From: Thermoplasmata archaeon
Lineage (GTDB): Archaea > Thermoplasmatota > Thermoplasmata > Thermoplasmatales > GCA-001856825
DNA length: 64,000 nt
Direction: 5' to 3'
Assembly (NCBI GenBank): GCA_021792255.1
Contig: JAJYUZ010000003.1
Span: forward strand, 201,405-265,404
The notes beneath the pieces were generated by a model, which had not been told where the DNA came from, did not search any database, and worked only from the letters and a program-made list of their open reading frames with translations. How positions within the stretch are numbered: the stretch's first letter is position 1; each line of letters starts with the position of its first letter. Positions 23,275 through 42,287 of this stretch are shown here, one piece after another. A program made the position numbers and the translations under genes.

Positions 23275-23323
23275 AGATTTGCATAAGAACTTAGGTAAAA
23301 AGACTTAGTTATTCTGAGACGAG

Positions 23324-24118: not shown

Positions 24119-24212
24119 CTCAGGCGTTGCAGATATTTAAGAACGGTCTGCGCAGTCCAGGGGTTCAATTCATCCTTTCTGCCTCCCATCTTTCGCGTCA
24201 AATCGTCTGTGT

Positions 24213-25634: not shown

Positions 25635-26379
25635 CGGTTAACATCCTCGCCACGACACGCTCAATCGACTCTCCCTCTTTTCCCAATTTCTTCAATTCTA
25701 CAAGCGTTCCTTTCCATATGACCACCCCACGTGAGATCATAATTACCTTGTCCGTCAATCTGGTCGCTACTTCCATTATGTGAGTGGACACCAGTTGCGT
25801 CGAATTAAAGCTCTTTAGATAGTCGATGACGTTCTCCTGAGTCGGTATATCGAGATAATTTAAGGGCTCGTCGAGCAAGAGTACTGAAGGCTTGTGAACG
25901 ATTGCAAGTGCCAAAGCCAGCTTTTGAACGTTTCCTCTTGATAGACTCCCTACCTTTGATCTTTCATATTCCCTCAGCTGGAGATAGTCGAGAAGTCTGT
26001 CCACTTTATCAGAAACATCCTCTACCCCTCTAAGTGCTCCTATGTACTCCAGATTCTCCCTTACACTGAAAGACCTGTAGGGTGAGGCATCGTCTGGCAG
26101 ATAACCCACGATCCTGTGTGCCTCTTCTGAGGATGGAGAAAAGTCCCCAATTCTAGCTTCTCCTGAATTAGGGCTCAGGAGCCCTACTAGGATTTTAAGA
26201 GTTGTTGTTTTCCCTGCGCCGTTGGGTCCCAGGAGAGCATATCTTTCCCCTGGCTCAAGTCTAAAGGTAAGTCCTTTCAATGCCTCAATGTTTCCGTAAT
26301 ATTTTGAAACACCTTTCAATTCTATTGATGGCGGGGTCATTGATCTTTCCATGAGCTCACTCACTCTCAGCAGAAACAA
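25624..26379 (-). CDS. ABC transporter ATP-binding protein
   Basis: ATPase of the two-gene exporter, 251 residues. Walker A is [16 protein letters not shown] (about residues 49-64), the signature is [16 protein letters not shown] (LSRGN in place of LSGGQ), and Walker B is [16 protein letters not shown]. The switch histidine is in [10 protein letters not shown]. Starts at 26379, 26352 and 26337 are all in frame; the conserved domain begins near 26337 ([17 protein letters not shown]). It is closest to the CcmA-type ABC-2 exporter ATPases. Confidence 0.92.
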
Positions 26380-26554
26380 GCCGAGATTCAGTTGAAGGGA
26401 ATTCAGAGTTCAGAACAGAAATGACGTTCCATATAGTTAGATATGAATCTGAATAGTTCGTCTGTCCCATTATTCTAAATTTTTCTCGACGATTTAACGA
26501 TTCTGTTCTTTTGTCAAGCCCGTTTACTGTGGTGTCTCTGATTTAAGCGTACAA

Positions 26555-27625
26555 TTATGGGATGCGTCTCCTTCTCGCTAGTCTCTTTGAGACCCCCCAA
26601 ACCAATCCAATAACGACACCGATTAAGGATACAAGAAGTATGAAATCTAATAGGGAGAACATGTGTGGTACTTCCAGTGGAACGAGTTCGACGTTGTGAA
26701 GCACTGTTGGATAGGTTTTAGACGTCACCGTGAAATTGTAAAAGTAATTCCAGTATCCTAGAGAAGTCACCTCCATTTCGTATTTATGGCCAGCCGGTAG
26801 GGTTAATGTGAAAACTCCGCCTATTGTAGTAACCTGCTTACCATTCATAAACATAGAGGCTCCGTCAGGCGTCACAGAACCCGTAAAGGTAATTGAGTAT
26901 ATACTGAACTGAATATTCACTGCTGCACCAGAGCCATCTATTATAATGGTTCCAGTCGTTGGAGAAGTTGTGTAATTCATCGGTACATTGATGGTATAAG
27001 GATAGGAACCATTTTTTTCCAATAGTAAGATGCTGTCTGATGAGGGAAAACTCGTGATTCCGTTGAATGCAATCGACCACTTAATTCCACTTGGAAGTCC
27101 TGTTTCACGGAACATCACTTGGTATAATCTAGAATACGTTATCGTAATGTTCTCCGAAGCGCCCGATACTGAAAATGAACCTGCGAATGGAGCCACCGTG
27201 AAGTTGTGTATTAGACCTACGATATAGCCATAACTGCCATTGGGTCTTAGGAAAGTTATTTCGTTCGACAATGATGATTCGTTTGTACCGTTAAGAGATA
27301 TATACCAACTGGTCCCGGTGGGGAACCCTCTTTCTATGAAAATGACATCATATTCCTTAGGACTCAAACTTGTCGTTTCTCTGACGTCGCTTAGGGAAGC
27401 AGTCTGTTTGTCTTCTCCACAAAGTTCGCACATTGCGAAACCGTTAGAATAGTCGGTAGGGATTAAATGGTGCGCCCCGGAGTCTCCAATGCTTGCAATT
27501 AAAGGAGGCGAGGGATGCGCATCTAAAATCATTGCCGATCCGGAAGGAACAACGTTTGAACTCGTAGTCATTGAAACGAGACAAAATAGAATAATTACCA
27601 GGAGTAATTTCTCTTTATCTAGCAT
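26555..27625 (-). CDS. Secreted, membrane-anchored repeat protein
   Basis: A 356-residue surface protein. It has an N-terminal signal segment (LLLVIILFCLVSMTTSS), two copies of a roughly 80-residue domain that starts VIFIERGFPTGTSWYISLNG and VMFRETGLPSGIKWSIAFNG, then a PEGA-like beta domain (FTGSVTPDGASMFMNGKQV) and a C-terminal helix with a basic stop-transfer end (SKRLARRRRIP). The GLPSGT-W repeat is widespread in secreted proteins of Thermoplasmatales. Many N-x-S/T sequons suggest glycosylation. An isolated CELCGED near residue 70 is unexplained. Role unknown; adhesion or cell-surface structure is likely. Confidence 0.8.
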   Translation of the reverse strand: MLDKEKLLLVIILFCLVSMTTSSNVVPSGSAMILDAHPSPPLIASIGDSGAHHLIPTDYSNGFAMCELCGEDKQTASLSDVRETTSLSPKEYDVIFIERGFPTGTSWYISLNGTNESSLSNEITFLRPNGSYGYIVGLIHNFTVAPFAGSFSVSGASENITITYSRLYQVMFRETGLPSGIKWSIAFNGITSFPSSDSILLLEKNGSYPYTINVPMNYTTSPTTGTIIIDGSGAAVNIQFSIYSITFTGSVTPDGASMFMNGKQVTTIGGVFTLTLPAGHKYEMEVTSLGYWNYFYNFTVTSKTYPTVLHNVELVPLEVPHMFSLLDFILLVSLIGVVIGLVWGVSKRLARRRRIP

Positions 27626-27874
27626 AAATTAGTTAAGGATAGTATCGCATAGTTCGTTTATTATATTTTCGATGAAGTTGCAGAAAGCTAACTCTTGGAC
27701 CGTTTTCAAATGCTAGATTCAATAAAAGAGGAATTCAAAATAGTGGAGATTCTTTGGTTCTGTTTGATGAATTTACATCATGCTGTTCCAACATTAAGAG
27801 GACACAGAGCAGTTCGAAGTTCATTATTTCTCAAGAAGTTAAAGAGTTTGGCCAAATCAGAATTTCGAAACTAT

Positions 27875-28504
27875 CTATTTCACTTTCTTTACTTTATTTT
27901 TTCCGTAATCTACAGCTTCTTGATATTTTCCCGTTCGCACGAATTGCCAGAATTTCTCATCGTCCAATAGATTTCCAAAGAGCTCTGAGCTAGCATGTTG
28001 GCCAATTCCCTTTGCTGACTTCCTTATCTCTTCTATCACGGGCAGAGCGACTGAACACTCCTCGGCCTTCTGCCTCAATTGTTTTCTGATGAACTTCGAG
28101 AATGAGGGGGAACGACCTTCGGTAGACACAGCCACTGTGACGCCATTTGTGGTAAACGCTGCCGGAAATATGAATGGGCTATCAACCCTATCAACGCTGT
28201 TGAAGAGCACTCTTTTGGCATCGCAGTACTTTCGCATCTCATCGTTAAATCTTGCGTCGTCGCTTGCTATTATGACTATAGTATCTCTATTTATAAAATT
28301 CTCCACAGATGATGGCGTGTCTAGATGCAGTACTATCTTTTCCACATCCATACCGTCTATGTATGGGTCGAATTTCTCAGAGATTACAGTAATTTTGTCG
28401 AATTTAGAATGAAGATTTCTCAGCTTAAGTGCTGCAGCCGTGCCGCCACCAATTATTGTGAGCTTTTTTCCGGTAACGTTGAGCATTACAGGTATAAATC
28501 TCAT
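27875..28504 (-). CDS. Precorrin-2 dehydrogenase / sirohydrochlorin ferrochelatase-like
   Basis: A 209-residue Met8p/CysG-N type protein that oxidises precorrin-2 to sirohydrochlorin with NAD and may insert iron to give siroheme. Visible: the Rossmann start LTIIGGGTAAALKLRNL (about residues 15-31), the DTIVIIASDDARFNDEM strand and the conserved FIFPAAFTTNGVTVAVSTEGRSPSFSKFIRKQL block (about 110-142). It lies 2 bases after the uroporphyrinogen methyltransferase gene at the end of the dsr operon, which needs siroheme for DsrAB. Confidence 0.9.
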   Translation of the reverse strand: MRFIPVMLNVTGKKLTIIGGGTAAALKLRNLHSKFDKITVISEKFDPYIDGMDVEKIVLHLDTPSSVENFINRDTIVIIASDDARFNDEMRKYCDAKRVLFNSVDRVDSPFIFPAAFTTNGVTVAVSTEGRSPSFSKFIRKQLRQKAEECSVALPVIEEIRKSAKGIGQHASSELFGNLLDDEKFWQFVRTGKYQEAVDYGKNKVKKVK

Positions 28505-28506
28505 TA

Positions 28507-29367
28507 TTACCTTTCCTTCGATCCGTCTTCGGGTGAACGCCTTGCTAAAATTATGCTATCTAAGGGGTTTTTTAAAGTTCCCCTCAAGTTCGTTGCAGTA
28601 ATGAAACCGCTGTCAGTGAGGGCATTGATCACCCTACCTATTACGATGATGCTGGGAGCCTTCACTTCAAACTTATCGACGATTTTTGGAAGGTCACTCA
28701 GCAGCCCAACGAATATTCTCTGATCTTTCTGGGTACCATTCTCAATTACCGTGACTCCCGTAAACGGGTCCATACCCCTCTCTATGAGATTTCTCGCTAT
28801 TTCTAATGAGCTTCCAACGCCCATTAGAACAACTATGGTACCGTCGAACCTCGCAATGTTGTCCCAGTCGTTCTCGATCACAGAATCCTTCCGATGGCCA
28901 GAAATAATAAGGAGAGATGAGGAATAATCTCTGTGAGTCAGGGGGATTCCTATTGCAGTCGCTACAGCTATGGCTGATGTCAGGCCAGGGACAACCTCGT
29001 ATGGAATGTTCTTCTTCTTCAGGAATTCTATCTCTTCGCCCCCTCTACCAAATATGAATGGATCTCCGGACTTGAGCCTGACAACGTTCTTCCCCTGTCT
29101 GTAATACTTCAGCACGAGTTCGTTTATTTTTTCCTGCTTAAAAGATGATTCAAGTCCGTGACTTGTCCCGACACATACCTTCTCGCAGGTATTGGGTACG
29201 AGTTTCACTATCTCGTAGCTGACCAGCCTATCGTACAAGAGAACGTCGCATTTTTTGATCAGTTTCGTGGCTTTGACAGTAAGATATTCTGGGTTACCTG
29301 GGCCAGCACCGACCAAGTACACTTTCCTGGATCTCTTACCGGATTTTCCGGACTTATTTGCCTTCAT
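28507..29367 (-). CDS. cobA: Uroporphyrinogen-III C-methyltransferase
   Basis: SUMT of 286 residues: two SAM-dependent methylations of uroporphyrinogen III to precorrin-2, the first committed step to siroheme and corrinoids. Motifs: VYLVGAGPGNPEYLTVKA at residues 17-34, the DVLLYDRLVS loop, VRLKSGDPFIFGRGGEEI near 98-115, PGLTSAIAVATAIGIPLTHRDYSSSL near 124-149 and DGTIVVLMGVG near 176. It directly follows dsrK, so siroheme precursor supply is co-expressed with the sulfite reductase. The basic N-terminal extension (SGKSGKRSRK) is unusual. Confidence 0.93.
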   Translation of the reverse strand: MKANKSGKSGKRSRKVYLVGAGPGNPEYLTVKATKLIKKCDVLLYDRLVSYEIVKLVPNTCEKVCVGTSHGLESSFKQEKINELVLKYYRQGKNVVRLKSGDPFIFGRGGEEIEFLKKKNIPYEVVPGLTSAIAVATAIGIPLTHRDYSSSLLIISGHRKDSVIENDWDNIARFDGTIVVLMGVGSSLEIARNLIERGMDPFTGVTVIENGTQKDQRIFVGLLSDLPKIVDKFEVKAPSIIVIGRVINALTDSGFITATNLRGTLKNPLDSIILARRSPEDGSKER

Positions 29368-29379
29368 GATACATCAATC

Positions 29380-30783
29380 TTAAGGCACGATTGCCTTGTA
29401 GACAAGGTCCATTAATCCGGAATAGGCAAGGGCCTGGTCGTGTTTCTTATTAAGGCGCGGAAGAGTGTGACTAAGTTGTGCTTTACAAATAGCGCAGGGT
29501 CTTATCACGTGTGTACCGCCAACAGATATGGCGTCCTCATACCATAACTTAGCATATTCTGTTCTCAATGGAAGCAGTTCATCACTGAGCAGACCGCCTC
29601 CACCTCCGCAACACCACGTTCTTTCTCTTGAATGTGGAGAGTTTTGATAACTACTTACCACACTAGATAGTACAGATCTTGGTTCATCAATCAGGTCCCC
29701 TCCTCTTGCATAATTGCAGGGGTCTTGGTATACGTAGGAGGGCCCATCGTTATTTTTGGGCTCTAGTTTTATTTTTGCACTTTCGATAGCATCCTCTACA
29801 AGATGGAACACGTGCAGCCCAGATAATCCTTTTTTCTCCAGTTCTGGAATTACATAATTCTTGAACGCTCTCCAACCGTGTCCACACTCTCCCGCAATAA
29901 CTGCTTTGACCCCAAGTTCCAGTGCGACATTCACCACGTGATTCCCTATTTCCCTGAGATGTTTCGCATCCGTAAACAGACCAAAATTTGCAAGCTCAGC
30001 GTGCTTAGTTGTGAACGTATAATCGAATCCTATGGAATGAAAAAATAACATGTACCCTTTCAGTGTTTCTATGTTACTAAAGAAATCAGCAGAAGGAGGA
30101 ATAAACATTGCATATGCGGGTTGATCGATTTTTGGAATCACTTTTACTCCCTTTTCTTCTAAGATCTCGTCTCTGGCAAATTCTATAGTGGATTTTAGTG
30201 CGGCGGGCGGGAGAGCCATGTTGTTTCCAGTCCTTTCCACATTACCAATGACTACTGCGGTATATCTCGATATTTTACCCATATCGTACAGAACTGACCT
30301 AATCGTTCTGGTAACATCTGCCTGGTCTATACCAAAAGGGCAGATTTCTCCACATCTCCTGCACTCTAGGCACTGATAATAGTAGGTCGAAACGTCCTCT
30401 AAGGATTTGTTGTTTAACTCCCTCGCTCCAACCGCTTTCTTAAATATCTTTCCAGAAAGTTTGGTCGATTTTAGGAGCCCCCTAATCAAATCGGCTCTTC
30501 CGACTGGAGAGTTGTATGTATCTTCAGTAGTTAAAAAAGTGGGACAGGCATTAAGACAGGCTCCGCAATGCACACACGCATCTATAGCGAGTTTGACGTT
30601 CCTATTCCGTTTAACTTCTCTCTTTACGTTCTCTACAAAAAAATCCACTTGATTTTGATTTGGGGTCTGCGTGTGACCAACCTTATCGTAAAGCGCATTT
30701 ACGAGCTTTTCGTCAGCCCAGAGAGATTCAAAATTTGAAGTGTCTCCTTTCCTAAACTCTATTTCGTGCGGTATTGTGTTCAC
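29380..30783 (-). CDS. dsrK: DsrK: HdrD-like iron-sulfur protein of a DsrMK complex
   Basis: A 467-residue cytoplasmic subunit of a membrane heterodisulfide-reductase-like complex. Two [4Fe-4S] ferredoxin motifs are complete: C70, C73, C76, C80 and C138, C141, C144, C148. Two CCG-type domains follow (YQDPCNYARGGD near residue 345 and TWCCGGGGGLLSDE near 388), which in HdrD and DsrK hold the catalytic cluster that handles disulfides or trisulfides. It overlaps dsrM by 32 bases. In sulfate reducers DsrMK is proposed to reduce the DsrC trisulfide with quinol electrons; the same role is inferred here. Confidence 0.88.
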   Translation of the reverse strand: MNTIPHEIEFRKGDTSNFESLWADEKLVNALYDKVGHTQTPNQNQVDFFVENVKREVKRNRNVKLAIDACVHCGACLNACPTFLTTEDTYNSPVGRADLIRGLLKSTKLSGKIFKKAVGARELNNKSLEDVSTYYYQCLECRRCGEICPFGIDQADVTRTIRSVLYDMGKISRYTAVVIGNVERTGNNMALPPAALKSTIEFARDEILEEKGVKVIPKIDQPAYAMFIPPSADFFSNIETLKGYMLFFHSIGFDYTFTTKHAELANFGLFTDAKHLREIGNHVVNVALELGVKAVIAGECGHGWRAFKNYVIPELEKKGLSGLHVFHLVEDAIESAKIKLEPKNNDGPSYVYQDPCNYARGGDLIDEPRSVLSSVVSSYQNSPHSRERTWCCGGGGGLLSDELLPLRTEYAKLWYEDAISVGGTHVIRPCAICKAQLSHTLPRLNKKHDQALAYSGLMDLVYKAIVP

Positions 30784-31558
30784 CTTCCTCGTCGATTCTT
30801 AGCATATACGCTTCCGTCTCCTTAAATCTCTTTATTTTGAAACTCGTCTTCGTTATAGTTGGCTGAAACAAGTATGCAACTATATGGATTATTTTTCCGA
30901 ATGGGATGTACGCTATGAATACAAAGGCTAAGGTTATGTGGATCGCTGTTACCGGACTGACTTGGGTCATCGTGGCTATTTCAGGCCTGAACTCTACTAT
31001 GGAGGTAAGCCAAGGCGAAACGGTAGAAATGAAATCGGGTCGTATATAGAGCGTCTGTGTAAGCCCGAGTATAATCAGCGCCAGAAGCATTGAGATTGCA
31101 AAATAATCGTCTAAGTAGCTTATGCGCCTCACTTTCTTTACTTGTAATCTCCTCGCAGCAAGAATTAGGATACCGATAAAAGCGCTGATGCCAGCACTTC
31201 CACCCATGTAGAGCGCTACCATCATATGAAATTGGATGGAGACGGGTAAGGGAACGACCATGGCAAGATGTCCCAGCAGTGAGAACCAGATTCCATAGTG
31301 AAACAAAATCGATCCGACGATGAGCGTTCTGTCTTTTTCCATTTTTGGGAGAGTATAAAAGAGAAAAACTCTTTTGGCCAGGTCTTTCACTATCGAAAAA
31401 AGACTGAATGTACCGGGAACTATAGCGACAGTCTTTAACTCCGTTAAACCCTTGGCAGAGATCCAGCTGGCTATTCTGTATATGAATCCGACAAGAAAAA
31501 TAGCAATTGCACTATAAGGAAGGAAAATAAATAAAATACTTGCGAGTAGATTGTTCAT
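30752..31558 (-). CDS. dsrM: DsrM: NarI-like membrane cytochrome b subunit
   Basis: A 268-residue protein with about five to six hydrophobic spans, related to nitrate reductase gamma, HdrE and DsrM. Histidines for haem b lie within spans (LFHYGIWFSLLGHLAMV near residue 86 and AIHITLAFVFIAYIPFGKIIHIVAYLF near 205-230). It passes electrons between the quinone pool and DsrK. The gene lies between dsrB and dsrK and overlaps dsrK by 32 bases. No DsrJOP-type periplasmic subunits are present, so this is the minimal DsrMK form. Confidence 0.87.
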   Translation of the reverse strand: MNNLLASILFIFLPYSAIAIFLVGFIYRIASWISAKGLTELKTVAIVPGTFSLFSIVKDLAKRVFLFYTLPKMEKDRTLIVGSILFHYGIWFSLLGHLAMVVPLPVSIQFHMMVALYMGGSAGISAFIGILILAARRLQVKKVRRISYLDDYFAISMLLALIILGLTQTLYIRPDFISTVSPWLTSIVEFRPEIATMTQVSPVTAIHITLAFVFIAYIPFGKIIHIVAYLFQPTITKTSFKIKRFKETEAYMLRIDEEGEHNTARNRV

Positions 31559-31566
31559 AATGATCT

Positions 31567-32676
31567 TTACCGAACGGGAAACTGCCTAATCCCGAACTCG
31601 GAACTTACGAACTCAGTGTTGTTCCACCTTGTTACAGGAATATCAAGTGCTTTTTGAAATTCCCTTAATCCAATTCTCCGCACATAGTCTGCGAGCCTTT
31701 CACCCGCCACAGCATTCCCCTTCCACATATCTATGATCTTCTGTAGAACCGCGACGACTTCACGATAATTTGGTGGGCTTATTGGAATCCAAGGGATGAG
31801 GACCATTGCAAGATTCTGTCCTCTTCCAGTGTTGCTACTCTTGCCTCCGACCAATATCGAGATTCCGATTTTTGTGGTATCAAATGTGATGTAATCGCAG
31901 ACATCCTTGCAACGACCACAGGCTATGCATTTTTCGCGATTGATTTGAATGCCGACGGTGTCATCGTCCTTTTTGAAAGCGGATATACATTTCATCGGGC
32001 AGACCATGACAACTTCAGGAACAGCAACCTCTAATGCCTTCGCACTTCTGGGGAGGCATAAACCTATTTTCTGTGGATCGAAAGAAGGAGCATCGCCGTA
32101 ATGGCCCACAACTACTATATCAGACGTGAGTCCACCACAGGCCGTAGGACATCCTGCAACACTAATCCTCAATTTGGCGGGAATACTTTCCTCATCAGTA
32201 AAATATTTTCCAAATTGATCGTAGAGGACTTTTGTGATAGAAGAAGAGTCTGCGACTGCCGTGGTACAGGAAAGGTACGCTGTGCACGACCCAATGGACC
32301 ATAATGAATTACGCCACCCTCCTGCGTGAAATCCCATTTTTTCTATCTCATTTTTGATCAGCAAAGACTTTTCAAGACTGTCGGAGATAAATTCCACATT
32401 TCCCGATCTTGTGAACCTCAGAGTCCCAATTCCAAATTTATCCTCTATATCAGCAAACACCCTGAGGGTATTAGAGCTAAATCTAGCATTTGGCGGGCTT
32501 CCGACCTTAATCGTAAACAAATGATCGCCTTTTTCAGAAATGTGTTCGATTATTCCGCCGCCGTGGAATTTTCTATCTGCCCATTTACCCAGATTACTCT
32601 TAATTTCCTCTGGAAGCGAGTCCGTGTATGGCACTGGCAATCTTTTTTTCATTCTTTCTGATAAGTTTGTTGACAT
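31567..32676 (-). CDS. dsrB: Dissimilatory sulfite reductase subunit beta
   Basis: DsrB, 369 residues. The siroheme/[4Fe-4S] site cysteines are C131-x5-C137 and C176-x3-C180 (in GSCTAYLSC and AGCPTACGG). The inserted ferredoxin domain is complete: CPMKC (226, 230) and C250, C253, C256, C260. The segment around 135-150 (TTAVADSSSITK) corresponds to the conserved HTPATDAS-type block of DsrB. The pattern C-x5-C plus C-x3-C is that of DsrA and assimilatory enzymes, whereas well-studied DsrB proteins have lost the first cysteine and gained one next to the third. It follows dsrA by 3 bases. Confidence 0.9.
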   Translation of the reverse strand: MSTNLSERMKKRLPVPYTDSLPEEIKSNLGKWADRKFHGGGIIEHISEKGDHLFTIKVGSPPNARFSSNTLRVFADIEDKFGIGTLRFTRSGNVEFISDSLEKSLLIKNEIEKMGFHAGGWRNSLWSIGSCTAYLSCTTAVADSSSITKVLYDQFGKYFTDEESIPAKLRISVAGCPTACGGLTSDIVVVGHYGDAPSFDPQKIGLCLPRSAKALEVAVPEVVMVCPMKCISAFKKDDDTVGIQINREKCIACGRCKDVCDYITFDTTKIGISILVGGKSSNTGRGQNLAMVLIPWIPISPPNYREVVAVLQKIIDMWKGNAVAGERLADYVRRIGLREFQKALDIPVTRWNNTEFVSSEFGIRQFPVR

Positions 32677-32679
32677 TCT

Positions 32680-33900
32680 TCACTCCCCGTACTCCTTTAC
32701 AATATTGTCTACCCATTTAGAGTAACCTTCTCTCTCTTCATCAGTCAGTACTGCACTGGCAATTATTCTTTGTTGTCCAGTTGGATGCCCTTCAATTTCA
32801 GTCGGAAGACTGCTGCTGACTGCTTCCACTGTTTTGGAGAATCCTGATTTGAAAAGCATGTCTCCTATCCTGTCTTTGTGGGGAGAGCCATCTTCCCAGA
32901 TGCTGATTATCTTCATTATGAATTCCTTAGCCTGGGCATAATCATCCAGAATTGATACAGGCTTTCCCATTTTTGGACCAAACCTTCCCTTTATATTTCC
33001 ACCTGCCAGAAGTGCAACTTTTCTGTTCTTTCCTGGTTTAATGGCAGGGAAGGCATACCTTATGCAGTTCATGGATTTTTTGCACTTTTCAGAATCTATT
33101 TTGATTCCTCCTGATTCTCGATTTTCAGATATTGCACCTGATGGACATTCCTTGATTAAACGTTCTATCTTCAGATCATCCTTCCTTATCTTGTCTTGAA
33201 GTAAACCCCAGTCAACATCTGGACTCCCCTCCCACGTTCCAATGAATCCGAAATCAGCCCTGTGAGACGCCCTCGCACAGTCCATAGGACATCCGCTGAA
33301 TTTGAGTTTCACCTTGAATGGGAATAACTGATTCGAAAGGTTGTTGTATATCGGTTCATAAGTCATGTAATGGTCCCTTGCTTGGAGGGTGTCGTATAAA
33401 GAATATTCGCACAGTGCAGGGCCGACGCAAGATGCAAAATCCCTGTAAGTATCGCCCGTATCTCCAACATCTGTTCCTAGGTTCCTTATTGCATCAATTG
33501 CCTCATCAGCCCTTTCCGGATTCATTGAAATTATCATCCCTCCTGTCTGTCCGATAACTTCTATGAGACCTAGTCCGTACTCATCAGAAAAATCAAGAAT
33601 TTTCCTTAACATTTCTGTTCTGTAGAATTGTCCGGAAGGATGATAAATTCTGAAGTGAAGTTCTGAGTCTTTTCCGTCCTTGGTCCGTCTGGCTATAAAA
33701 CCAGTATAGACATATCTTATCTTTGCCGACCCTCCATACCATTGAGTTTCGCCAATGGCTAGTCCACTGGAGTACGCCCTTATAGGATACTTAGTTTTCT
33801 TGATTTCTGTAACGTGACTTGGCCATTTCCCACTCTCCAAATATTCAAGAATTTTAGCACCTTTATCAGAGATGGCGATGTCTTTGTCATTTACAGTCAT
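32680..33900 (-). CDS. dsrA: Dissimilatory sulfite reductase subunit alpha
   Basis: DsrA, 406 residues; with DsrB forms the alpha2beta2 enzyme that interconverts sulfite and reduced sulfur bound to DsrC. Siroheme-cluster cysteines: C158-x5-C164 (SCVGPALCEY) and C204-x3-C208 (GCPMDCARASHRADFGFIGTW). The ferredoxin domain shows C252, C273 and C279, but the residue at the remaining ligand position is Ser276 (codon TCC, 33073-33075), so the extra [4Fe-4S] cluster may be altered. The C-terminal flavin-independent tail (GQQRIIASAVLTDEEREGYSKWV) is typical. It follows tusA by 19 bases with a GGTGA site just before the ATG. Confidence 0.92.
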   Translation of the reverse strand: MTVNDKDIAISDKGAKILEYLESGKWPSHVTEIKKTKYPIRAYSSGLAIGETQWYGGSAKIRYVYTGFIARRTKDGKDSELHFRIYHPSGQFYRTEMLRKILDFSDEYGLGLIEVIGQTGGMIISMNPERADEAIDAIRNLGTDVGDTGDTYRDFASCVGPALCEYSLYDTLQARDHYMTYEPIYNNLSNQLFPFKVKLKFSGCPMDCARASHRADFGFIGTWEGSPDVDWGLLQDKIRKDDLKIERLIKECPSGAISENRESGGIKIDSEKCKKSMNCIRYAFPAIKPGKNRKVALLAGGNIKGRFGPKMGKPVSILDDYAQAKEFIMKIISIWEDGSPHKDRIGDMLFKSGFSKTVEAVSSSLPTEIEGHPTGQQRIIASAVLTDEEREGYSKWVDNIVKEYGE

Positions 33901-33919
33901 TATCGCTCACCTTCCGTTA

Positions 33920-34147
33920 TTAAGGTCCGCGTTTTAAAAGAAATTCTACTGCCCCTTGCTTTTCAGTAATTTCAATAATCTTGTTCCCTGTCTGTTTGGA
34001 CCAAGCATCAAAGTCGGATTTCGCTGCGGGATCATCAACGATCACCCTGATTTCATCTCCGACTGCTATTTCCTTTATCGCCTTGGCCGTCTTAATAATC
34101 GGCAGGGGACATTGCAAACCCTTAAAATCAAAAACTTTAGCGTTCAT
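33920..34147 (-). CDS. tusA: TusA/SirA family sulfur carrier
   Basis: A 75-residue TusA with the active cysteine in the N-terminal CPxP motif (FKGLQCPLPIIKTAKAI, Cys13). TusA relays persulfide sulfur between rhodanese- or desulfurase-type donors and acceptors such as DsrE or DsrC. It is the first gene of the dsr operon. The ATG at 34147 is preferred; a TTG precedes it directly. A TATA box lies about 25 bases upstream and an 8-base palindrome just behind that. Its presence is more typical of sulfur-oxidising dsr loci but does not prove direction. Confidence 0.9.
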   Translation of the reverse strand: MNAKVFDFKGLQCPLPIIKTAKAIKEIAVGDEIRVIVDDPAAKSDFDAWSKQTGNKIIEITEKQGAVEFLLKRGP

Positions 34148-34167
34148 CAAATTTCAATCTACACTTG

Positions 34168-34177
34168 ATATTAATAA
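34168..34177 (-). promoter_or_regulatory. TATA box of the tusA-dsrAB-dsrMK operon
   Basis: TTATTAATAT on the minus strand, 21-30 bases before the tusA ATG. It is the only well-placed promoter for the seven-gene operon that runs to 27875. Confidence 0.5.
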
Positions 34178-34178
34178 C

Positions 34179-34202
34179 TTTCCCTTGAAATATTAAGGGA
34201 AA
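34179..34202. promoter_or_regulatory. Palindrome next to the dsr operon promoter (possible operator)
   Basis: TTTCCCTT (34179-34186) and AAGGGAAA (34195-34202) form a perfect 8-base inverted repeat with an 8-base spacer. It abuts the upstream side of the TATA box, where the transcription factor B recognition element would be. A dimeric regulator bound here could block or recruit the basal machinery. No known motif is assigned. Confidence 0.5.
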
Positions 34203-34203
34203 A

Positions 34204-34540
34204 TTAAATCCACGTTGATAATGGATGGTAGTAACGGTGCCACTGTGACATCCTCAGAATGCCTTCCTTCGTCTTGAATCTGTGCTTTAGCAACCATGAC
34301 ATTGCAGAAAGTCACTTCTACCCCTAAGGATCAATAGAAACGGCAGGGAAGTTCATATCATTTGGTGTGTAGGATGTTTCACCAGTAAAATCGTTCAAGT
34401 TGGTTGTGATGATTCTATTCTTGACGAATGTGTATCTGTGAATCTTCACATTACATTTCCTTTCATGTATATTTCATGCTTTCCCACATTATTTCTGGGA
34501 ATGTTCAAAACCTACTGAACGATACAAATTCAACTTATGC
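34204..34540 (-). other. Region between divergent dsr genes with possible gene remnant
   Basis: About 340 bases without an intact gene. On the minus strand two frames read like protein in sequence: KIHRYTFVKNRIITTNLND and onward to a TAG near 34325, then in another frame VEVTFCNVMVAKAQIQDEG to PSIINVDLIFP near 34203. This could be a frameshifted remnant, but no family is recognised. Confidence 0.3.
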
Positions 34541-34594
34541 TTGACATTCTCTATTCAGCAAAAGGTTCTTATAAGGGCTAAGCGTAGTATTAAC

Positions 34595-35029
34595 ATGAGT
34601 GAAGAAACTCCTTCAAAGAAAAACAAATTGGTAATAGTTTTAAGCAAAGGGACGCTGGATGCTGCATACCCAGCCCTGATAATAGCCACATCCGGCGTTT
34701 CTCTGGGGATGGAAGTTTACATGTACTTCACCTTTGGTGGAATGAAATTTCTTACAAAGGGACAGAGCGATACTGCCGAGCCCTCAAAAGATCTCGGTCT
34801 CTCAAAAGAAGAGTTGAAAAATTTGATTTCACAAGGAGGAATGCCATCTGTTCAAGATATGCTGAAAATGGCAGTCGAGATGGGAGTCCACATTAATGCG
34901 TGCTCCCCGACTATGAAATTGTTCGGTACTACCCAAGAGAATTTGACACTGAAAGAAGCTGACGTTGTTGGGGCATCAACTTTCCTAGGATGGGCATCGG
35001 ATCCTTCTGCTATAACGCTGTTCATATGA
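34595..35029 (+). CDS. DsrE/DsrF-like sulfur-transfer protein
   Basis: A 144-residue protein of the DsrE/DsrF/DsrH-like superfamily, in the longer, peroxiredoxin-annotated (DsrE2-like) group. The opening KLVIVLSKGTLDAAYPALIIATSGVSLGMEVYMYFTFGGM and the conserved cysteine in VHINACSPTMKLFG (about residues 96-109) are characteristic. The ATG at 34595 is the start: a TTCTTATAAG box lies about 25 bases upstream and the sequence before it is not conserved in type. Divergent from the dsr operon, followed by a second DsrE-like gene. Likely moves persulfide between TusA and DsrC or DsrAB. Confidence 0.85.
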   Translation: MSEETPSKKNKLVIVLSKGTLDAAYPALIIATSGVSLGMEVYMYFTFGGMKFLTKGQSDTAEPSKDLGLSKEELKNLISQGGMPSVQDMLKMAVEMGVHINACSPTMKLFGTTQENLTLKEADVVGASTFLGWASDPSAITLFI

Positions 35030-35080
35030 TATAACTAAAATTTGGTAACGATGGTCAATAACAATTAGGGAGGAAAGAAC

Positions 35081-35443
35081 GTGGAAGAAAATAGAAAGAA
35101 GATAGCTTTTTTCTGCACGATTTCTCCAGGAGATACAGCTAGGCTAGATACGATGCTTGGGTATGCGGCTGCAGGGATAGCGATGAACTATGAAATTAAA
35201 ATATTCCTAGCTCTTGATTCCGCACTCGTGGTGAAAAAAATGATATTTGAGAAGCTTGATACCAAAATAAAAGGACGGATAACGGACTCTATAAAAGAAG
35301 GAGCGGATATAGGTGTTTGTTCTGCCTCTGCAAAAACATTCGGGATCGGAGAAACTGACCTGATAGAGGGAGTTAAAATAGAAGGGATAGCCTCATTCTA
35401 CTACTATGCAGAAAACGCTGATATAGTGCTTTCCTGGAACTAG
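35081..35443 (+). CDS. DsrE-family protein
   Basis: A 120-residue second DsrE-like protein. It shares with its upstream neighbour the fold start (KKIAFFCTISPGDTARLDTMLGYAAAGIAMNYEIKIFLALDSAL) and the cysteine motif (ADIGVCSASAKTFGIGETDLI, about residues 85-105). It starts with GTG at 35081 behind a strong AGGGAGG site (35067-35073). The two genes are 51 bases apart and probably co-transcribed. They may act as a hetero-oligomer in sulfur relay, like DsrEFH, although no DsrH homolog is seen. Confidence 0.8.
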   Translation: MEENRKKIAFFCTISPGDTARLDTMLGYAAAGIAMNYEIKIFLALDSALVVKKMIFEKLDTKIKGRITDSIKEGADIGVCSASAKTFGIGETDLIEGVKIEGIASFYYYAENADIVLSWN

Positions 35444-35681
35444 GAAACCTTTCCTCTTACTGACAGTGATGCCCCCTACAGTGGGCACACTCCTTTCTTC
35501 TTCAGACAGCTTTACAGTAAAAATCTAATGGAGTTTCCGTCGTATCGGGGTGTTAGCATTCCAATGAAATTGAACGACTGATCATCAACAGCCCATGGCC
35601 GATAGAGGTCAGTAGCACTCTGGGAAACGATATCGCATTTTATTTGTCATAAAATCCAAGTCTAACTTATGTTAGTAAAAT

Positions 35682-35709
35682 GTCCTGGACAATTACACAG
35701 GACTATTTT
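35682..35709 (+). terminator. Possible hairpin and T-run terminator
   Basis: GTCCTG (35682-35687) and CAGGAC (35698-35703) form a 6-base stem with a 10-base loop, followed by TATTTTT. It lies about 240 bases after the DsrE-like genes and just before the convergent dsrN stop, so it could end transcription from the left. Weak evidence. Confidence 0.3.
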
Positions 35710-35710
35710 T

Positions 35711-37093
35711 CTAAGGTTTTTTCACAGCAAATTTTTGGGAGATAGTTTTGACAAAGTCGTGGACTGCTGGGTGAAGATGTGCATATTGAGCGAAAGTATT
35801 CTTCACCTGTATCCCATCAAACTTACCTTCTATTCCAGTTCCTTTTTCGTGTAAAAGATTGAATTCATATTTTTCCTTCAGAGAAATTTTCGAATAATGA
35901 AATTCATGCCCTTTCAGTATGTCGCCTTTGTCCGAAATCAGGTTGTCTTTTAAAACGCTCGCAATTGAATAACCATGCGCAACAGGTTGATCATTCATCA
36001 GAGTCCTTCCATTTATTAGTCCAACAAGATCGTATTCCTCACCATTGAAAGTGACAGAATTCGTTAGGTAAATGAGACCACCGCATTCTGCATATATGAT
36101 GCCCCCATTGTCGCCAAAAGACCACACGGAGTTGCGAAAACTTTTGTTTTTTTCAAGATGCTGAGCGTAGACTTCTGGGAAACCGCCTCCTATGATCAAC
36201 ACATCCAAATTAGGCAATTCATTATCTTTTTCGGGATCGATGAACCTTACAGTCCCATAAAGACTTGCCTTTTCAATAGTTTCTGGGTAGTAGAAAGTGA
36301 AGGATTTCCCACCCATTATTCCAAATTTCAAGTTAGACCTAGTCATCGATTTTTTTTCTGACCCACCTACCCACACATCAATGTCCTCTGACTCGCTTTT
36401 GGCAAGTTTCATTATTCTGTTTGTCTGAAACGATTCAGCTGGTAGTTTATCTAGTATGGTTTGAAAGTCGTAAGATGGGCCCTTCTCGGTAACAGGTTGT
36501 AATCCGAGATGCCTATAGTGGAAGATGTCTGTGATATCTCTGTTTCTGTATATAACTCCGAGGACGGGTACGCCTTCTTCCTCTATCACTTCCCTCATCT
36601 TGTCATACTGACGTGGAATTATATTTGTCAGGACTACCCCTATGATCTTCACCTTATGGTCAAATTGGATTAGTCCTCTGAGAATTGCACCTGCTGTCCT
36701 ATTTATTCTCTCCCCATCAATCACTAGTAAGATCGGGGCTCCCAGAAGCTTGGCCAACTGTGCCGTACTTCCGGTTTCGCTTATACCATCGATGCTGTCG
36801 TATAATCCGTGATTTCCTTCAATCAAGGCTATGTCGGACCCCTTTGATTGCTGGTAGAATAATTTTGTAACTGTATCTCCCATAAGGAAAAAATCAAGGT
36901 TTCTTGAATATTTGCCGCTTGCAGCTTTATGATAGGTAGGGTCGATAAAATCCGGTCCGTTTTTGAATGCGCTGACTTTGTAACCTTCCTTGGAAAGAGT
37001 TTTTAAGAGAGAGACAGTGACGAGAGTTTTTCCAGTTTTTCCCTTGATAGAGGTGATAACGATCCTTGGTACGGTTATTTTTTTTCTAATAAT
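35711..37093 (-). CDS. dsrN: CbiA-type cobyrinate/siroheme amidase, probable DsrN
   Basis: Glutamine-dependent a,c-diamide synthase family, about 460 residues. The N-terminal P-loop is IKGKTGKTLVTVSLLKTL, followed by FKNGPDFIDPTYHKAAS; a GATase domain carries the nucleophile cysteine in IIYAECGGLIYLTN and a histidine near the end (QYAHLHPAVHDF). In dsr loci the homolog DsrN amidates siroheme for DsrAB, the most likely role here. The first ATG (36883) lies well inside the domain, and between the upstream stop near 37121 and that ATG there is no ATG, GTG or TTG; ATT at 37090 or 37093 is the best-placed candidate start. Confidence 0.85.
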   Translation of the reverse strand: MIRKKITVPRIVITSIKGKTGKTLVTVSLLKTLSKEGYKVSAFKNGPDFIDPTYHKAASGKYSRNLDFFLMGDTVTKLFYQQSKGSDIALIEGNHGLYDSIDGISETGSTAQLAKLLGAPILLVIDGERINRTAGAILRGLIQFDHKVKIIGVVLTNIIPRQYDKMREVIEEEGVPVLGVIYRNRDITDIFHYRHLGLQPVTEKGPSYDFQTILDKLPAESFQTNRIMKLAKSESEDIDVWVGGSEKKSMTRSNLKFGIMGGKSFTFYYPETIEKASLYGTVRFIDPEKDNELPNLDVLIIGGGFPEVYAQHLEKNKSFRNSVWSFGDNGGIIYAECGGLIYLTNSVTFNGEEYDLVGLINGRTLMNDQPVAHGYSIASVLKDNLISDKGDILKGHEFHYSKISLKEKYEFNLLHEKGTGIEGKFDGIQVKNTFAQYAHLHPAVHDFVKTISQKFAVKKP

Positions 37094-37277
37094 GGTTATT
37101 TTACCCCATCCCCGATGCTATTTTTCACTCTGCAGCGAATTTTCAATAAAGACCTCGAAGGAACGTTTCAACGACCTGTCTAATTTAGCCTGAGGAACAG
37201 TAGTACATGGGAATCCACAGTATCGCGGCGGTCTCCACGTGTTTAACTCCTTAACAAATTAAACGGTTCGAAGAGTA

Positions 37278-37616
37278 TTAGACGCACCCAGTCGGTTTGG
37301 GAGCCCCTGCTACTTTACAGGCGCCATGGGCAGGGCCATCGGGAAAAAGTTCGAACATTTTTTCAAGTGTGATTCCGGTCTTTTTGACAATCATTTTGAT
37401 TGGCGGGCAGACTCCAAAGGTTCCCCAGTACTCTCTCAAATACCGAATGAGTACCCAGTGCTCTTCGGTCATATCTGGAACTCCTGCTTGCTCTTTTGCA
37501 ATCTTTTTGGCTATTTCTTCATTCCAAATTTCCGGACTTTGCATGAATCCATCCTCGTCAAACAGGACTTTTACCCCGTTGACCTCAAACGACTCAGATT
37601 TTTCATCCGTTGTCAT
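37278..37616 (-). CDS. dsrC: DsrC, sulfur-carrier partner of dissimilatory sulfite reductase
   Basis: A 112-residue DsrC. The C-terminal arm has both redox cysteines, Cys100 and the penultimate Cys111 (GACKVAGAPKPTGCV), the mark of true DsrC rather than TusE. Other family blocks: DEDGFMQSPEIWNEEIAK, LIRYLREYWGTFGVCPPIKMIVKKTG. In the cycle DsrAB loads sulfur on DsrC as a trisulfide, which DsrMK then opens. The frame is open to 37850, but the ATG at 37616 fits the family length and has a TTTATTTAAA box about 25-35 bases upstream. It is a separate transcription unit. Confidence 0.93.
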   Translation of the reverse strand: MTTDEKSESFEVNGVKVLFDEDGFMQSPEIWNEEIAKKIAKEQAGVPDMTEEHWVLIRYLREYWGTFGVCPPIKMIVKKTGITLEKMFELFPDGPAHGACKVAGAPKPTGCV

Positions 37617-37909
37617 ATTTATCGATTTGTACAATTTGATATTGTTTAAATAAATTGTGCGTGACTTTACATGATTCAATACTGATTGCCGGTAGTATTG
37701 CATTATACGATGTCTGTGGTACATTGGGACCGTTGTACCTATGTCTGTTCTATCGGATTCATTTTCTTCAGATAATAACCAAGGGTGAAATTTCCCAGAC
37801 CAGACATAATCTAATATTTCGAGAATAATACTGCCTGTTAAACGATGCAATAGACAGCGTGAGGAACGTGAGAATTTTTCTAGGGCAGAATAGTTTGGAT
37901 TTGGTGCGA

Positions 37910-37982
37910 CGCCCCGAACGGGATTTGAACCCGTGTCACGAGCTCGACAGACTCGTATGATAGGCCACTACACTATCGGGGC
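37910..37982 (-). tRNA. tRNA-Asp (anticodon GTC)
   Basis: A 73-base tRNA on the minus strand. Acceptor GCCCCGA pairs with TCGGGGC, the anticodon loop is CTGTCGA with anticodon GTC, the T arm is ACGGG-TTCAAAT-CCCGT, and the discriminator is G, as expected for tRNA-Asp. CCA is not encoded and no intron is seen. Confidence 0.92.
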
Positions 37983-38003
37983 TTTCCGTCGTATTGTCTG
38001 AGT

Positions 38004-38441
38004 TTATTTAACACTTTCTTGTGGATGGGTGAGTGGGAACAATCTCCTCAGTGCTTCTATCTCTCCCTTTAATATATGAATTGCGGCGAAGCGCGTAAAG
38101 GGATACCACAGCCCCTTCATTTTCAGATCCATCCTTATTACGACCTTTTTGTCAAAAACCTGAAAGACTTGATAGCCCTTTATGGGACCATCTCCATACT
38201 TAATCAGTATGGACAGATCCTCCTTCCTTCGACCGATCCATTCTGTCTGTCTCTTGTTCCTAAAAGCCAGTACGGACTCCCTGTTGTTTTGATCTATCCT
38301 CTTGATTGCAAGGTGCCCTCTCCAAATTTCGGTGTCGTCGATGCTTTCGATCAATTTCTGGAAGGCATCCTCGGGTTGTTCGATTAAAGGAAATTCGTAG
38401 TAGACACGCACCAAGTTGGATTGATTTCTGAAATATAACAT
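38004..38441 (-). CDS. Hypothetical protein, possibly SRPBCC-like
   Basis: A 145-residue protein. The N-terminal YYEFPLIEQPEDAFQKLIESIDDTEIWRG, alternating strands, and a long C-terminal helix (FAAIHILKGEIEALRRLFP) suggest a START/polyketide-cyclase (SRPBCC) helix-grip fold, but no residue pattern proves it. It lies 22 bases from tRNA-Asp with no obvious functional partner, and is divergent from an aldo/keto reductase gene. Confidence 0.6.
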   Translation of the reverse strand: MLYFRNQSNLVRVYYEFPLIEQPEDAFQKLIESIDDTEIWRGHLAIKRIDQNNRESVLAFRNKRQTEWIGRRKEDLSILIKYGDGPIKGYQVFQVFDKKVVIRMDLKMKGLWYPFTRFAAIHILKGEIEALRRLFPLTHPQESVK

Positions 38442-38521
38442 TTTAAATCATGATATAGTTTCTAAGCTTTTCTTCCCTTTCGTTTTGGAGCTAAAGGATT
38501 AATTGTCTGTTCAGATAATGT

Positions 38522-39508
38522 GTGATGGTTGGTCTATTCGATGAGAACGGAACAAACAAGATCGGGTTAGGGACGTGGCAACTCGGGCTTAAGGGGTGGG
38601 GAAGAGACTATGAAGAGAGTGAGCTCGTCGAGGGCCTAAAGTTTGGAATTAATAATGGACTGAACTTCGTCGATACCGCAGAAATATATGGAATGGGAAA
38701 ATCCGAGAGTCTCGTCGGAGAAGTTGTAAGTGAGTTCGAAAGAAAACAGCTTTTCATCGCCACAAAACTTGCAGGCTTTAACGCAACCAAGGGAAGAGTG
38801 CGCAAAAGCCTAACAAACAGTCTGAAAAGACTGAGAATGGACTATTTGGATCTCTACCAGGTCCACTGGGAACCCAGTCTATACACGAACCTGACGGATC
38901 TATTCAGGGAACTCGAGGAGGTAGCAAAAGAAGGCTTGATCAATCATATCGGAGTATCTAATTTTAGTGCCAAAAGCATAGAAAAAGCCAACGGTTCTAT
39001 GAAAGAACTAAAGATTGAAAGCAATCAGATCAAGTTCAATCTGGTAGAGAGACCAAATTCAGAACTATTGAGTTTTATGAAAGCAAACGCAATTAAACTT
39101 ATAGCTTGGAGCCCTCTGGCTCAGGGATTTCTTTCTGGAAAATACTCTAGCGAGAGCAAACCATCTGGAAGCGTCAGGAAAATCAATAGACTATTCTCTC
39201 CATCCAGTTTTGAAAGATTTGGCCCTTTGCTTTCAGAACTGCGCAGAATATCAGATGAGAGGAAACTTAGTCCGATTCAGCTGGTTCTGGCCTACGAAAA
39301 ACATATTGGTATCCTTCCTATCCCCGGATTCAAGAACGTAAAACAGGTGAAGGACTTGGTCTCTGCTAATTCTCTGGAGCTATCAGAACAAGAAGTCTTT
39401 TCAATTGACTCGGCTCTTCAAAAAAGCGGAGTTTTGGAAACGTCAATAGGTTTCTATCCAAGAATACTTCCAAATTTCATCGCAAGATTGGGGTTTCTGC
39501 TGATCTAG
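38522..39508 (+). CDS. Aldo/keto reductase
   Basis: A 328-residue NADPH-dependent TIM-barrel reductase. The catalytic tetrad is visible: Asp and Tyr in FVDTAEIYGMGKSESLVG (about residues 49-66), Lys in FIATKLAGF and His in LYQVHWEP. The C-terminal cofactor-binding IPGFKNVKQVKDLV is also present. Start is GTG at 38522 or the ATG right after it. Substrate unknown. It belongs to the broad AKR group often annotated as general stress or sugar reductases. Confidence 0.88.
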   Translation: MMVGLFDENGTNKIGLGTWQLGLKGWGRDYEESELVEGLKFGINNGLNFVDTAEIYGMGKSESLVGEVVSEFERKQLFIATKLAGFNATKGRVRKSLTNSLKRLRMDYLDLYQVHWEPSLYTNLTDLFRELEEVAKEGLINHIGVSNFSAKSIEKANGSMKELKIESNQIKFNLVERPNSELLSFMKANAIKLIAWSPLAQGFLSGKYSSESKPSGSVRKINRLFSPSSFERFGPLLSELRRISDERKLSPIQLVLAYEKHIGILPIPGFKNVKQVKDLVSANSLELSEQEVFSIDSALQKSGVLETSIGFYPRILPNFIARLGFLLI

Positions 39509-39576
39509 TATAGACAAATGTCGAATGATAATGTCGGCAAAGGCTAAATAACCGATGAAATTCTGAGATGATTGTA

Positions 39577-40623
39577 ATGAGTTCAATAGTGTCCTATGGA
39601 TCTTACGTTCCGAGGTTCCGAATCAAGTCCGAGGAGATCGCAAAAGAGTGGGGAGAGATTCCTGAAAACATCAAGAATGGACTCTTTATCTTCAGCAAAT
39701 CCGTTCCGGGACCTGACGAGGATGTCCTAACTATTTCAGCAGAGGCTGCAAAGAATGCACTCAAAAGGGTTGACCTTGATAAGAACAAAATAGGCGCAAT
39801 ATACGTTGGTTCTGAAAGTCATCCATACGCCGTAAAGCCTACGTCGTCAATTCTCGTTGAAGCTCTTGGCTTATCTTACGATATCCATTCTGCAGACTAC
39901 GAGTTTGCGTGCAAAGCGGGAACCGCCGCAATGCAAAATGTAATGTCTATGGTCGACAGCGGGCAGATCGAGAATGGAATCGCAATTGGGGCTGACACTT
40001 CCCAGGGAGCACCGGGAGATGCACTTGAATACTCCGCGTCCGCAGGTGGAACAGCGATTTTGATCGGAAAGAATGGTTTTGCGGACTTCAATGCTACTCT
40101 TTCGTTCACAACAGATACACCAGATTTCTGGAGGAGGGAGGGGGAGAAGTACCCGAGCCATGGGGGTAGATTCACTGGAGAACCTGCATACTTCAAGCAC
40201 GTTCTTACCGGTGCAAAGAAAATGATGGAAAGGCAATCGACGAAACCAGAAGATTACGATTACGCAGTGTTCCACCAACCCAACGGTAAATTTCCAACGA
40301 GGGCAGCAAAAATGCTCGGCTTTAAGGATGAACAGGTAAAAGATGGTCTGCTCACTCCATACATAGGCAACACGTATTCCAGTTCAATGATCATTGGTCT
40401 GTCAGCAATCCTGGACAAGGCAGAGAGCGGAGACAGGATACTCGCCGTTGCGTTTGGTAGCGGAGCAGGCTCGGATGTTTTCGATCTGACTGTCAACGAT
40501 CACATCAAAACCCTGAAAAGAGAGAAGGCTCCGGGAGTGATGGAGCAAGTCAACAAGCAGATATGGATAGACTACGCTACTTACGTTAAATACAGGGGCA
40601 AGATAATTATGAGGGGGGCGTGA
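39577..40623 (+). CDS. Hydroxymethylglutaryl-CoA synthase, archaeal type
   Basis: Condenses acetyl-CoA and acetoacetyl-CoA to HMG-CoA, the second step of the mevalonate route to archaeal isoprenoid lipids. About 348 residues. Seen: the [13 protein letters not shown] start, catalytic cysteine in [15 protein letters not shown] (about residue 111), [27 protein letters not shown], and the histidine in [22 protein letters not shown] prefer ATG 39577 (MSSIVSYG) over ATG 39568. First gene of an operon with thiolase and DUF35 protein, which in archaea form one complex that channels acetoacetyl-CoA. Confidence 0.93.
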
Positions 40624-40627
40624 TCCA

Positions 40628-41785: not shown

Positions 41786-41786
41786 A

Positions 41787-42191
41787 TTGAGCGAAGTACC
41801 GAGGTTTTGGAGAGAGTCGAGGCACAGGTACAGATTAGTTGGAACTAGGTGCCTAAACTGCAATACACTATATTTCCCCCCGAGGGTAATATGCCCATCT
41901 TGCAGAAGAGAATCTGTGGGAAAAATGAAGGAGGAAGAGATGTCTGGAGCGGGGGAAGTATTTTCCTTCACCGTCGTTCACGATGGATTAGAGCAGTTCA
42001 AGATGCAGATTCCGTACATTATGGCATTGATCAAGATGAAAGAAGGTCCGTTTGTAACTGGACAGATCGTCGACTGTTCTCCCGATGACGTCAAGATTGG
42101 GACCAAGGTCTCGGCCACACTGAGGAAAGTGAGGTCAGAGGGGAAAGAGGGCATAATACAGTACGGGTATAAGTTCACCGTTTCTCCCTGA
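41787..42191 (+). CDS. DUF35 zinc-ribbon/OB-fold protein of the thiolase-HMGCS complex
   Basis: A 134-residue protein with an N-terminal zinc ribbon (CLNCNTLYFPPRVICPSC, about residues 21-38) and an OB-fold acyl-CoA binding domain (GEVFSFTVVHDGLEQFKMQIPYIMALIKM). In archaea the homolog bridges thiolase and HMG-CoA synthase and shares their CoA channel. TTG 41787 is a better start than TTG 41778 because GGAG at 41774-41777 lies 9 bases before it. It overlaps or abuts the thiolase stop, completing the three-gene operon. Confidence 0.9.
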   Translation: MSEVPRFWRESRHRYRLVGTRCLNCNTLYFPPRVICPSCRRESVGKMKEEEMSGAGEVFSFTVVHDGLEQFKMQIPYIMALIKMKEGPFVTGQIVDCSPDDVKIGTKVSATLRKVRSEGKEGIIQYGYKFTVSP

Positions 42192-42287
42192 TTGAGTTAC
42201 GTCGGGCTGACTGCGTTTTCTATCCTTGGATCGTATTACCTTTATCCCTGCTCACCAGAAGCTAACTGGCTGTCATTTTTGCGTTAC

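Follow-up and report, generated by a model that had tools for sequence, protein, structure and literature searches.

A dissimilatory sulfite reductase island of archaeal type, apparently acquired at a tRNA gene, in a Thermoplasmata archaeon

How does an archaeon whose relatives mostly lack dsrA come to carry a complete dissimilatory sulfite reductase (Dsr) system, and in which direction might that system run? The question is raised by a stretch of 64,000 nucleotides from an uncultured Thermoplasmata archaeon, a relative of Thermoplasma (the window; G000:C7:201405-265404), in which genes for DsrAB, DsrC and DsrMK lie together with genes for siroheme synthesis and for the sulfur carriers TusA, DsrE2 and DsrE. 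We found that DsrAB belongs, by sequence, to the archaeal reductive type, and that the island was apparently acquired at the 3′ end of a tRNA-Asp gene via a tyrosine-integrase element whose integrase later decayed. We favor, with moderate confidence, a model in which this imported module serves facultative reduction of sulfite, and probably sulfate, in an organism that also respires oxygen. The genome holding the window (G000) is archaeal, 1.59 Mb in 11 contigs and 93.6% complete, consistent with the Thermoplasmata-like host proposed in an earlier reading of the letters alone (the first-pass annotation). We compared it with congeners (cited below as G001, G002, G003, G007 and G010) in a genus of 11 species, and with genomes of its family (n = 15), its order (n = 61) and the class Thermoplasmata (n = 400).

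The features of the island are as follows (window coordinates, strand, identity; supporting matches with E values):

26308..37905, no strand: genome-specific segment (the island) that the collinear congener G007 lacks; blastn matches to G007 are collinear over 18997-26307 and 37906-44573
27875..28504, minus: precorrin-2 dehydrogenase/siroheme synthase N-domain (CysG-B type); NAD_binding_7 1.2e-16, TIGR01470 above cut-off
28507..29367, minus: uroporphyrinogen-III C-methyltransferase (SUMT), the only one in G000; TIGR01469 9.8e-87
29380..30783, minus: DsrK, HdrD-like Fe-S subunit with CCG domain; NF045796 DsrK 1.2e-94, under its cut-off, synteny kept
30752..31558, minus: DsrM, NarI-like di-haem cytochrome b; Nitrate_red_gam 5.9e-36, NF038037 DsrM 3.2e-17
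31567..32676, minus: DsrB; TIGR02066 1.2e-95, 3mm5_B 5e-50
32680..33900, minus: DsrA; TIGR02064 1.9e-94, 3mm5_A 7e-47
33920..34150, minus: TusA sulfur carrier with CPLP motif; PF01206 1.9e-21
34541..35029, plus: DsrE2-type sulfur carrier; NF047629 5.3e-18, under cut-off, DrsE_2 1.2e-24
35081..35443, plus: DsrE-like sulfurtransferase with conserved cysteine (GVCSAS); PF02635 7.6e-16, orthologues adjoin dsrAB within the clade
35711..37093, minus: DsrN-type siroheme amidase (CbiA/CobB family); TIGR00379 6.3e-95, P-loop TSIKGKTGKT 5′ of the first ATG
37278..37616, minus: DsrC with two C-terminal cysteines, single copy in G000; TIGR03342 1.3e-29, alignment
37838..37909, plus: putative tyrosine integrase remnant of 72 bp (3′ end of the gene) that continues into tRNA-Asp; 43/72 identity to the 3′ end of the G001 integrase
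37910..37982, minus: tRNA-Asp(GTC), apparent insertion site of the island; ARAGORN, Rfam, G007 collinearity resumes at 37906

Profile searches and reading frames recovered every gene named in the first-pass annotation, each where it had been placed, and its logic of DsrABCMK joined to siroheme genes held; the genes span 27875-37616 as it had said, but the edges of the genome-specific segment lie further out, at 26308 and 37905. The minus-strand run from TusA through DsrA, DsrB, DsrM, DsrK and SUMT to precorrin-2 dehydrogenase has gaps of 2-19 bases or, between DsrM and DsrK, an overlap of 32 bases. With a two-cysteine DsrC, DsrMK and DsrN all present, the minimal DsrABCMK(N) set is complete. 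Both conserved cysteines of DsrC align at its C-terminal end (CKVAGAPKPTGCV), and C121 of DsrE2 is invariant across the four genomes that share this layout (below). The DsrN reading frame extends beyond its first ATG, and no ATG, GTG or TTG lies 5′ of the P-loop; comparison with locus L023 (MIKERITVPRI) indicates that the start codon is apparently a non-canonical ATT at 37093. The island is not a product of chance: DsrA and DsrB match solved DsrAB with the E values given, and other genomes carry the cluster too.

What type of sulfite reductase is it? DsrA retains the siroheme-cluster cysteines C158, C164, C204 and C208, and DsrB retains C131, C137, C176 and C180 plus four ferredoxin cysteines. 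In alignment with A. fulgidus, DsrA also keeps R84, R153, K196, K198 and K200, which, by the A. fulgidus structure, would form the basic sulfite pocket. Both proteins missed their NCBIfam cut-offs (TIGR02064, 316.8 vs 392.85 bits; TIGR02066, 320.5 vs 341.5 bits). However, none of the 400 Thermoplasmata genomes passes the TIGR02064 cut-off for dsrA, the published MV2-Eury included; thus, this cut-off excludes known archaeal DsrA. Much lower scores came from the fold neighbors of DsrAB, assimilatory sulfite reductases among them. In a maximum likelihood tree of concatenated DsrAB (30 sequences, 740 columns), the window's DsrAB and all A-like ones (kind A and related sequences, below) cluster with Pyrobaculum oguniense and an uncultured Thermoproteales archaeon (support 100/100), while those of the MV2-Eury/EUR_06 Thermoplasmata (kind B) form a separate clade (100/100); Rokubacteria, Archaeoglobus and Desulfovibrio fall apart from both. 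The dissimilatory label of the first-pass annotation is thus supported by structure matches and tree alike. Of the placement it had proposed against reductive and oxidative clades, the archaeal reductive part was obtained; oxidative-type bacterial DsrAB are not among the 30 sequences and are excluded only via the published three-lineage topology. Trees of DsrK, DsrM, DsrC and DsrN largely match that of DsrAB; the window's SUMT and precorrin-2 dehydrogenase instead cluster with those of G002. The auxiliary ferredoxin motif of DsrA reads CKKSMNC, one cysteine short of CxxCxxC. We rejected this substitution as a new feature, since the serine is a lineage trait, common to all kind A and Thermoproteales DsrA (Pyrobaculum included) in which the motif was read.

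A DsrA relative is present in 8 of the 61 genomes of the order, and a DsrA match above 250 bits in ~18 of the 400 genomes of the class. Two kinds of island could be distinguished. Kind A, found in the window, YP4.bin104 (L023), FK_Sedi_B_Bin.146 (L024) and TL1-3.bin39 (L016/L025), has DsrE-DsrE2 divergent from TusA-DsrA-DsrB-DsrM-DsrK, with DsrN close by and DsrC too where the contig reaches; the sulfur-relay module of TusA, DsrE2 and DsrE is thus conserved and attached to archaeal DsrAB in four genomes. Kind B, found in MV2-Eury, ARK-15, EUR_06, G002 and others, reads DsrC-A-B-M-K, in many cases with SUMT and precorrin-2 dehydrogenase next. Four more genomes (LL4.bin73, UBA61, WH2.bin83 and YP1.bin27) carry A-like DsrAB with DsrE, and no adjoining TusA or DsrE2 was seen there, some of the contigs being short. 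Within the genus, dsr occurs in two of the 11 species, each with a different version, and the DsrA proteins of G000 and G002 are ~34% identical. A cassette swap in place between the window and G002, whose SUMT genes are 58% identical, was ruled out because the two islands lie at unrelated loci; the SUMT affinity remains.

How did the island reach this genome? The dsr-lacking congener G007, assembled in 6 contigs, is collinear with the window on both sides of the island, and between these flanks has ~3.2 kb with different genes, including one for an amino-acid permease. Collinearity breaks exactly at the 3′ end of tRNA-Asp, and the dsr island is absent from that site in G007. Intact tyrosine integrases (PF00589) lie beside the same tRNA-Asp in G001, G002 and G010, and the G001 integrase gene runs into the tRNA, as does the 72-base stretch of the window. 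Against the 43/72 identity of that stretch to the G001 gene, the next best value anywhere in the genome, on either strand, was 37/72, and six other congeners gave 15-27/72. We read the stretch as the tail of a decayed integrase. That the island is an artefact of assembly or binning is very improbable: although the draft genome consists of 11 contigs, the island sits inside one of 345 kb, its two flanks are collinear with G007, and similar islands occur in separate genomes. Base composition was a weak sign of transfer, as the GC content at third codon positions differs little (0.43 in the island against a flank mean of 0.49, standard deviation 0.06). Transport of Dsr on viruses or plasmids was likewise rejected, since IMG/VR held no DsrA relative and plasmids gave only asrC-type matches; the integrase also had no match in IMG/VR. 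Elsewhere in the window, an intact-looking tyrosine integrase (59443-60411, plus strand) overlaps the 3′ end of a tRNA-Pro (60362-60435, minus strand) and shares ~31% identity with the integrase of G001 across 320 amino acids; it probably marks a second integrated element.

The other half of the pathway lies at a second tRNA insertion, on contig C3, where 264 bases separate AprBA from the tRNA-Arg(TCT) 3′ end:

G000:C3:351171-353450 (L093:16171-18450): AprB-AprA, in a variable segment; tRNA-Arg at L093:18714-18789

This segment differs in G007, G003, G001 and G002, with the boundary each time at tRNA-Arg, and AprBA is absent there. The L023 island also begins 175 bases from the 3′ end of a tRNA, a tRNA-Thr, while at the remaining loci examined no island has a tRNA that close. 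Chance is an unlikely source of three such cases, given that the regions up to 300 bases 3′ of a tRNA make up only 0.85% of G000, but the pattern was spotted post hoc. AprA scores 924 bits, over its cut-off, AprB was identified by PF12139, and Sat scores 324 bits. G000 and G002, the two dsr-bearing genomes, are the only members of the family with full AprA and with SUMT, a co-occurrence that for aprA and dsr has a chance of ~1 in 105 (hand calculation). The AprA proteins of G000 and G002 are 52% identical, whereas that of G000 is 76% identical to those of another family; in G002, sat-aprBA and Qmo-like genes form one run near its dsr. Together, these sequence comparisons suggest two separate acquisitions of a linked function, with a count weakened by incomplete genomes. 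We ruled out Sat as part of the imported module, as the gene is family-wide.

We asked how much of this has been described. The first-pass annotation had thought the system possibly undescribed in this lineage; that claim falls, as dsrAB in Thermoplasmatota, including Thermoplasmataceae, was published between 2015 and 2026: in TMEG-bg1 (as cited in PMC9287336), MV2- and SJ3-Eury (PMC7174415), Thermoplasmatales EUR_06 (PMC9326234), further Thermoplasmatota (Diao 2023, PMC10591310), and Thermoplasmataceae, GCA-001856825, ARK-15 and UBA184, as DsrAB clades 1 and 5 (Tang 2026, PMC12948486). RA-DsrAB clades 5 and 1 of Tang 2026 likewise combine archaeal-type DsrAB with DsrC, DsrN, DsrM and DsrK in Thermoplasmatota. 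The window's DsrAB plausibly belongs to clade 5, a placement made with no clade-labelled sequences compared, and its genome may be among the acid-mine-drainage genomes of that study. A text search showed no mention of an operon, gene cluster or aprA in the main text of Tang 2026, and we found there no account of TusA, DsrE2 or DsrE neighbors or of the tRNA insertion. As to gene order, whose novelty the first-pass annotation had made dependent on published relatives, at least three other genomes share it; we found no published account of a TusA/DsrE2/DsrE-linked island or of the tRNA and integrase traces (supplements and subscription papers were not covered). MV2-Eury, ARK-15 and EUR_06 are of the same GTDB order and share DsrC-A-B-M-K, some with SUMT and precorrin-2 dehydrogenase, but their DsrA is ~32-37% identical to the window's, CxxCxxC is intact, and TusA/DsrE2 do not adjoin. 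The Thermoproteales loci, Pyrobaculum included (L030, L031), resemble the window in DsrAB (mostly 46-60% identical), in the CxxSMxC motif and in having TusA or DsrE nearby; they differ in that two dsrA(B) copies lie near each other and the order is dispersed, rather than a compact TusA-A-B-M-K island. The DsrE3A-DsrE2B-TusA relay of Metallosphaera cuprina, an acidophilic archaeon (PMC4175335), is tied to an Hdr-like sulfur-oxidation complex, whereas the window's module is tied to DsrABMK. Apparently new, then, are the TusA/DsrE2/DsrE module on archaeal DsrAB in four genomes, an island at the tRNA-Asp 3′ end that G007 lacks at this site and that ends in the remnant of an integrase intact in G001, and AprBA inserted separately, at the tRNA-Arg 3′ end. 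Trees are the usual evidence for movement of dsr among archaea; in this case a physical record survives, consisting of the junction with a tRNA, a congener's empty site, the tail of an integrase and, at another tRNA, an insertion with the pathway's other half.

In which direction might the pathway run? Its direction, substrates and electron donors and the role of TusA and DsrE are our interpretation of what could be read from sequence: gene content, family membership, DsrAB clade, conserved residues, insertion sites, integrase remnant and co-occurrence. In the favored, reductive model, SUMT, precorrin-2 dehydrogenase and DsrN would make siroheme (amide), DsrAB would reduce sulfite by four electrons onto DsrC to give a DsrC trisulfide, and DsrMK, drawing electrons from the quinone pool of the membrane, would reduce this trisulfide and so release sulfide. 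TusA, DsrE2 and DsrE would carry cytoplasmic sulfane or thiosulfonate sulfur to or from the Dsr system, which AprBA and the family-wide Sat would link to sulfate. This model draws on the DsrAB clade and on missing oxidative markers. DsrL is ~650 amino acids long, and no Fer4_20 protein of that size was found: there is one homologue of 491 amino acids in G000 and none in G060. The island contains no DsrFH or DsrJOP (only DsrE and DsrE2, so no DsrEFH trimer), and no open reading frame with at least two CxxCH motifs, the pattern expected of DsrJ, was found. These absences favor reduction through DsrC and DsrMK. No NiFe-hydrogenase motif pair was found in the genome. Archaeal Dsr has been described as solely reductive (PMC10591310).

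Several findings weigh against the favored model. G000 encodes Nuo (complex I), succinate dehydrogenase (SDH), Rieske/cytochrome b and a haem-copper oxidase. Apart from the island it has another DsrE2-TusA pair, with an SQR-like flavoprotein next in line (G000:C6:39586-41432); some respiratory and SQR-like identifications rest on reading of the sequences, beyond those tested by profile. The Sat of G000 belongs to the family-wide type that relatives without dsr share and differs from the dsr-linked one, no QmoABC resembling the G002 genes was found in G000, and the far end of the island has no direct repeat (att) of the tRNA-Asp 3′ end. The aerobic chain and the DsrE2-TusA-SQR-like cluster would suit sulfur oxidation. 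In such a pathway, which we consider unlikely though worth weighing, SQR and TusA/DsrE2/DsrE would load DsrC with sulfane sulfur, DsrAB would release sulfite, DsrMK would pass electrons to the quinone pool and the haem-copper oxidase, and AprBA with Sat would make sulfate and ATP, amounting to reverse Dsr in an archaeon, with an enzyme of the reductive type at its core. The TusA-DsrE2 relay adjoins dsrAB in four genomes that all have COX1, AprBA occurs without Qmo, and for a Nitrososphaeria genome that has dsrAB and dsrEFH, sulfur oxidation was put forward as a possibility by Luo 2024 (PMC10833072). However, UBA61, of the same clade, lacks COX1, and the window's DsrAB clusters with Thermoproteales enzymes whose loci likewise have TusA or DsrE close to dsrAB, which weakens these neighbors as a sign of oxidation. 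The oxidative rDsr of bacteria (Allochromatium type) also joins DsrABCMK to TusA/DsrE2 sulfur trafficking, but with the DsrL, DsrFH and DsrJOP that the island lacks and with DsrAB of bacterial type; recruitment of DsrEFH has been placed later, at that oxidative bacterial type (Tang 2026, PMC12948486). Somewhat more doubtful is the specific proposal that reductive-type DsrAB, the relay and a separately imported AprBA run oxidatively without DsrL or DsrEFH and spread as islands. Having both sulfur carriers and an aerobic chain beside archaeal-type Dsr, the system offers a clear test of whether such a Dsr can run oxidatively.

We also considered detoxification or assimilation of sulfite or thiosulfate/tetrathionate, rather than energy conservation. 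A TauE/SafE-type transporter (sulfite exporter family) is encoded near the island, at 23324-24118 on the minus strand, and detoxification has been proposed as the primordial role (Neukirchen 2023, PMC10504309). Yet the transporter gene lies outside the island and is retained in dsr-lacking G007, Sat occurs family-wide without dsr, and DsrMK and AprBA point to a respiratory link, making this role improbable.

As a G002-like QmoABC was not found, the favored model does not account for the electron supply to AprBA. Searches for Qmo in G000 returned HdrA-like matches that were weak (25-31%) and fell within a 2-oxoacid oxidoreductase-like cluster. This cluster, at G000:C11:126-139 kb, includes an HdrA-like protein of 1144 amino acids, ETF-like genes and a molybdopterin oxidoreductase-like protein.

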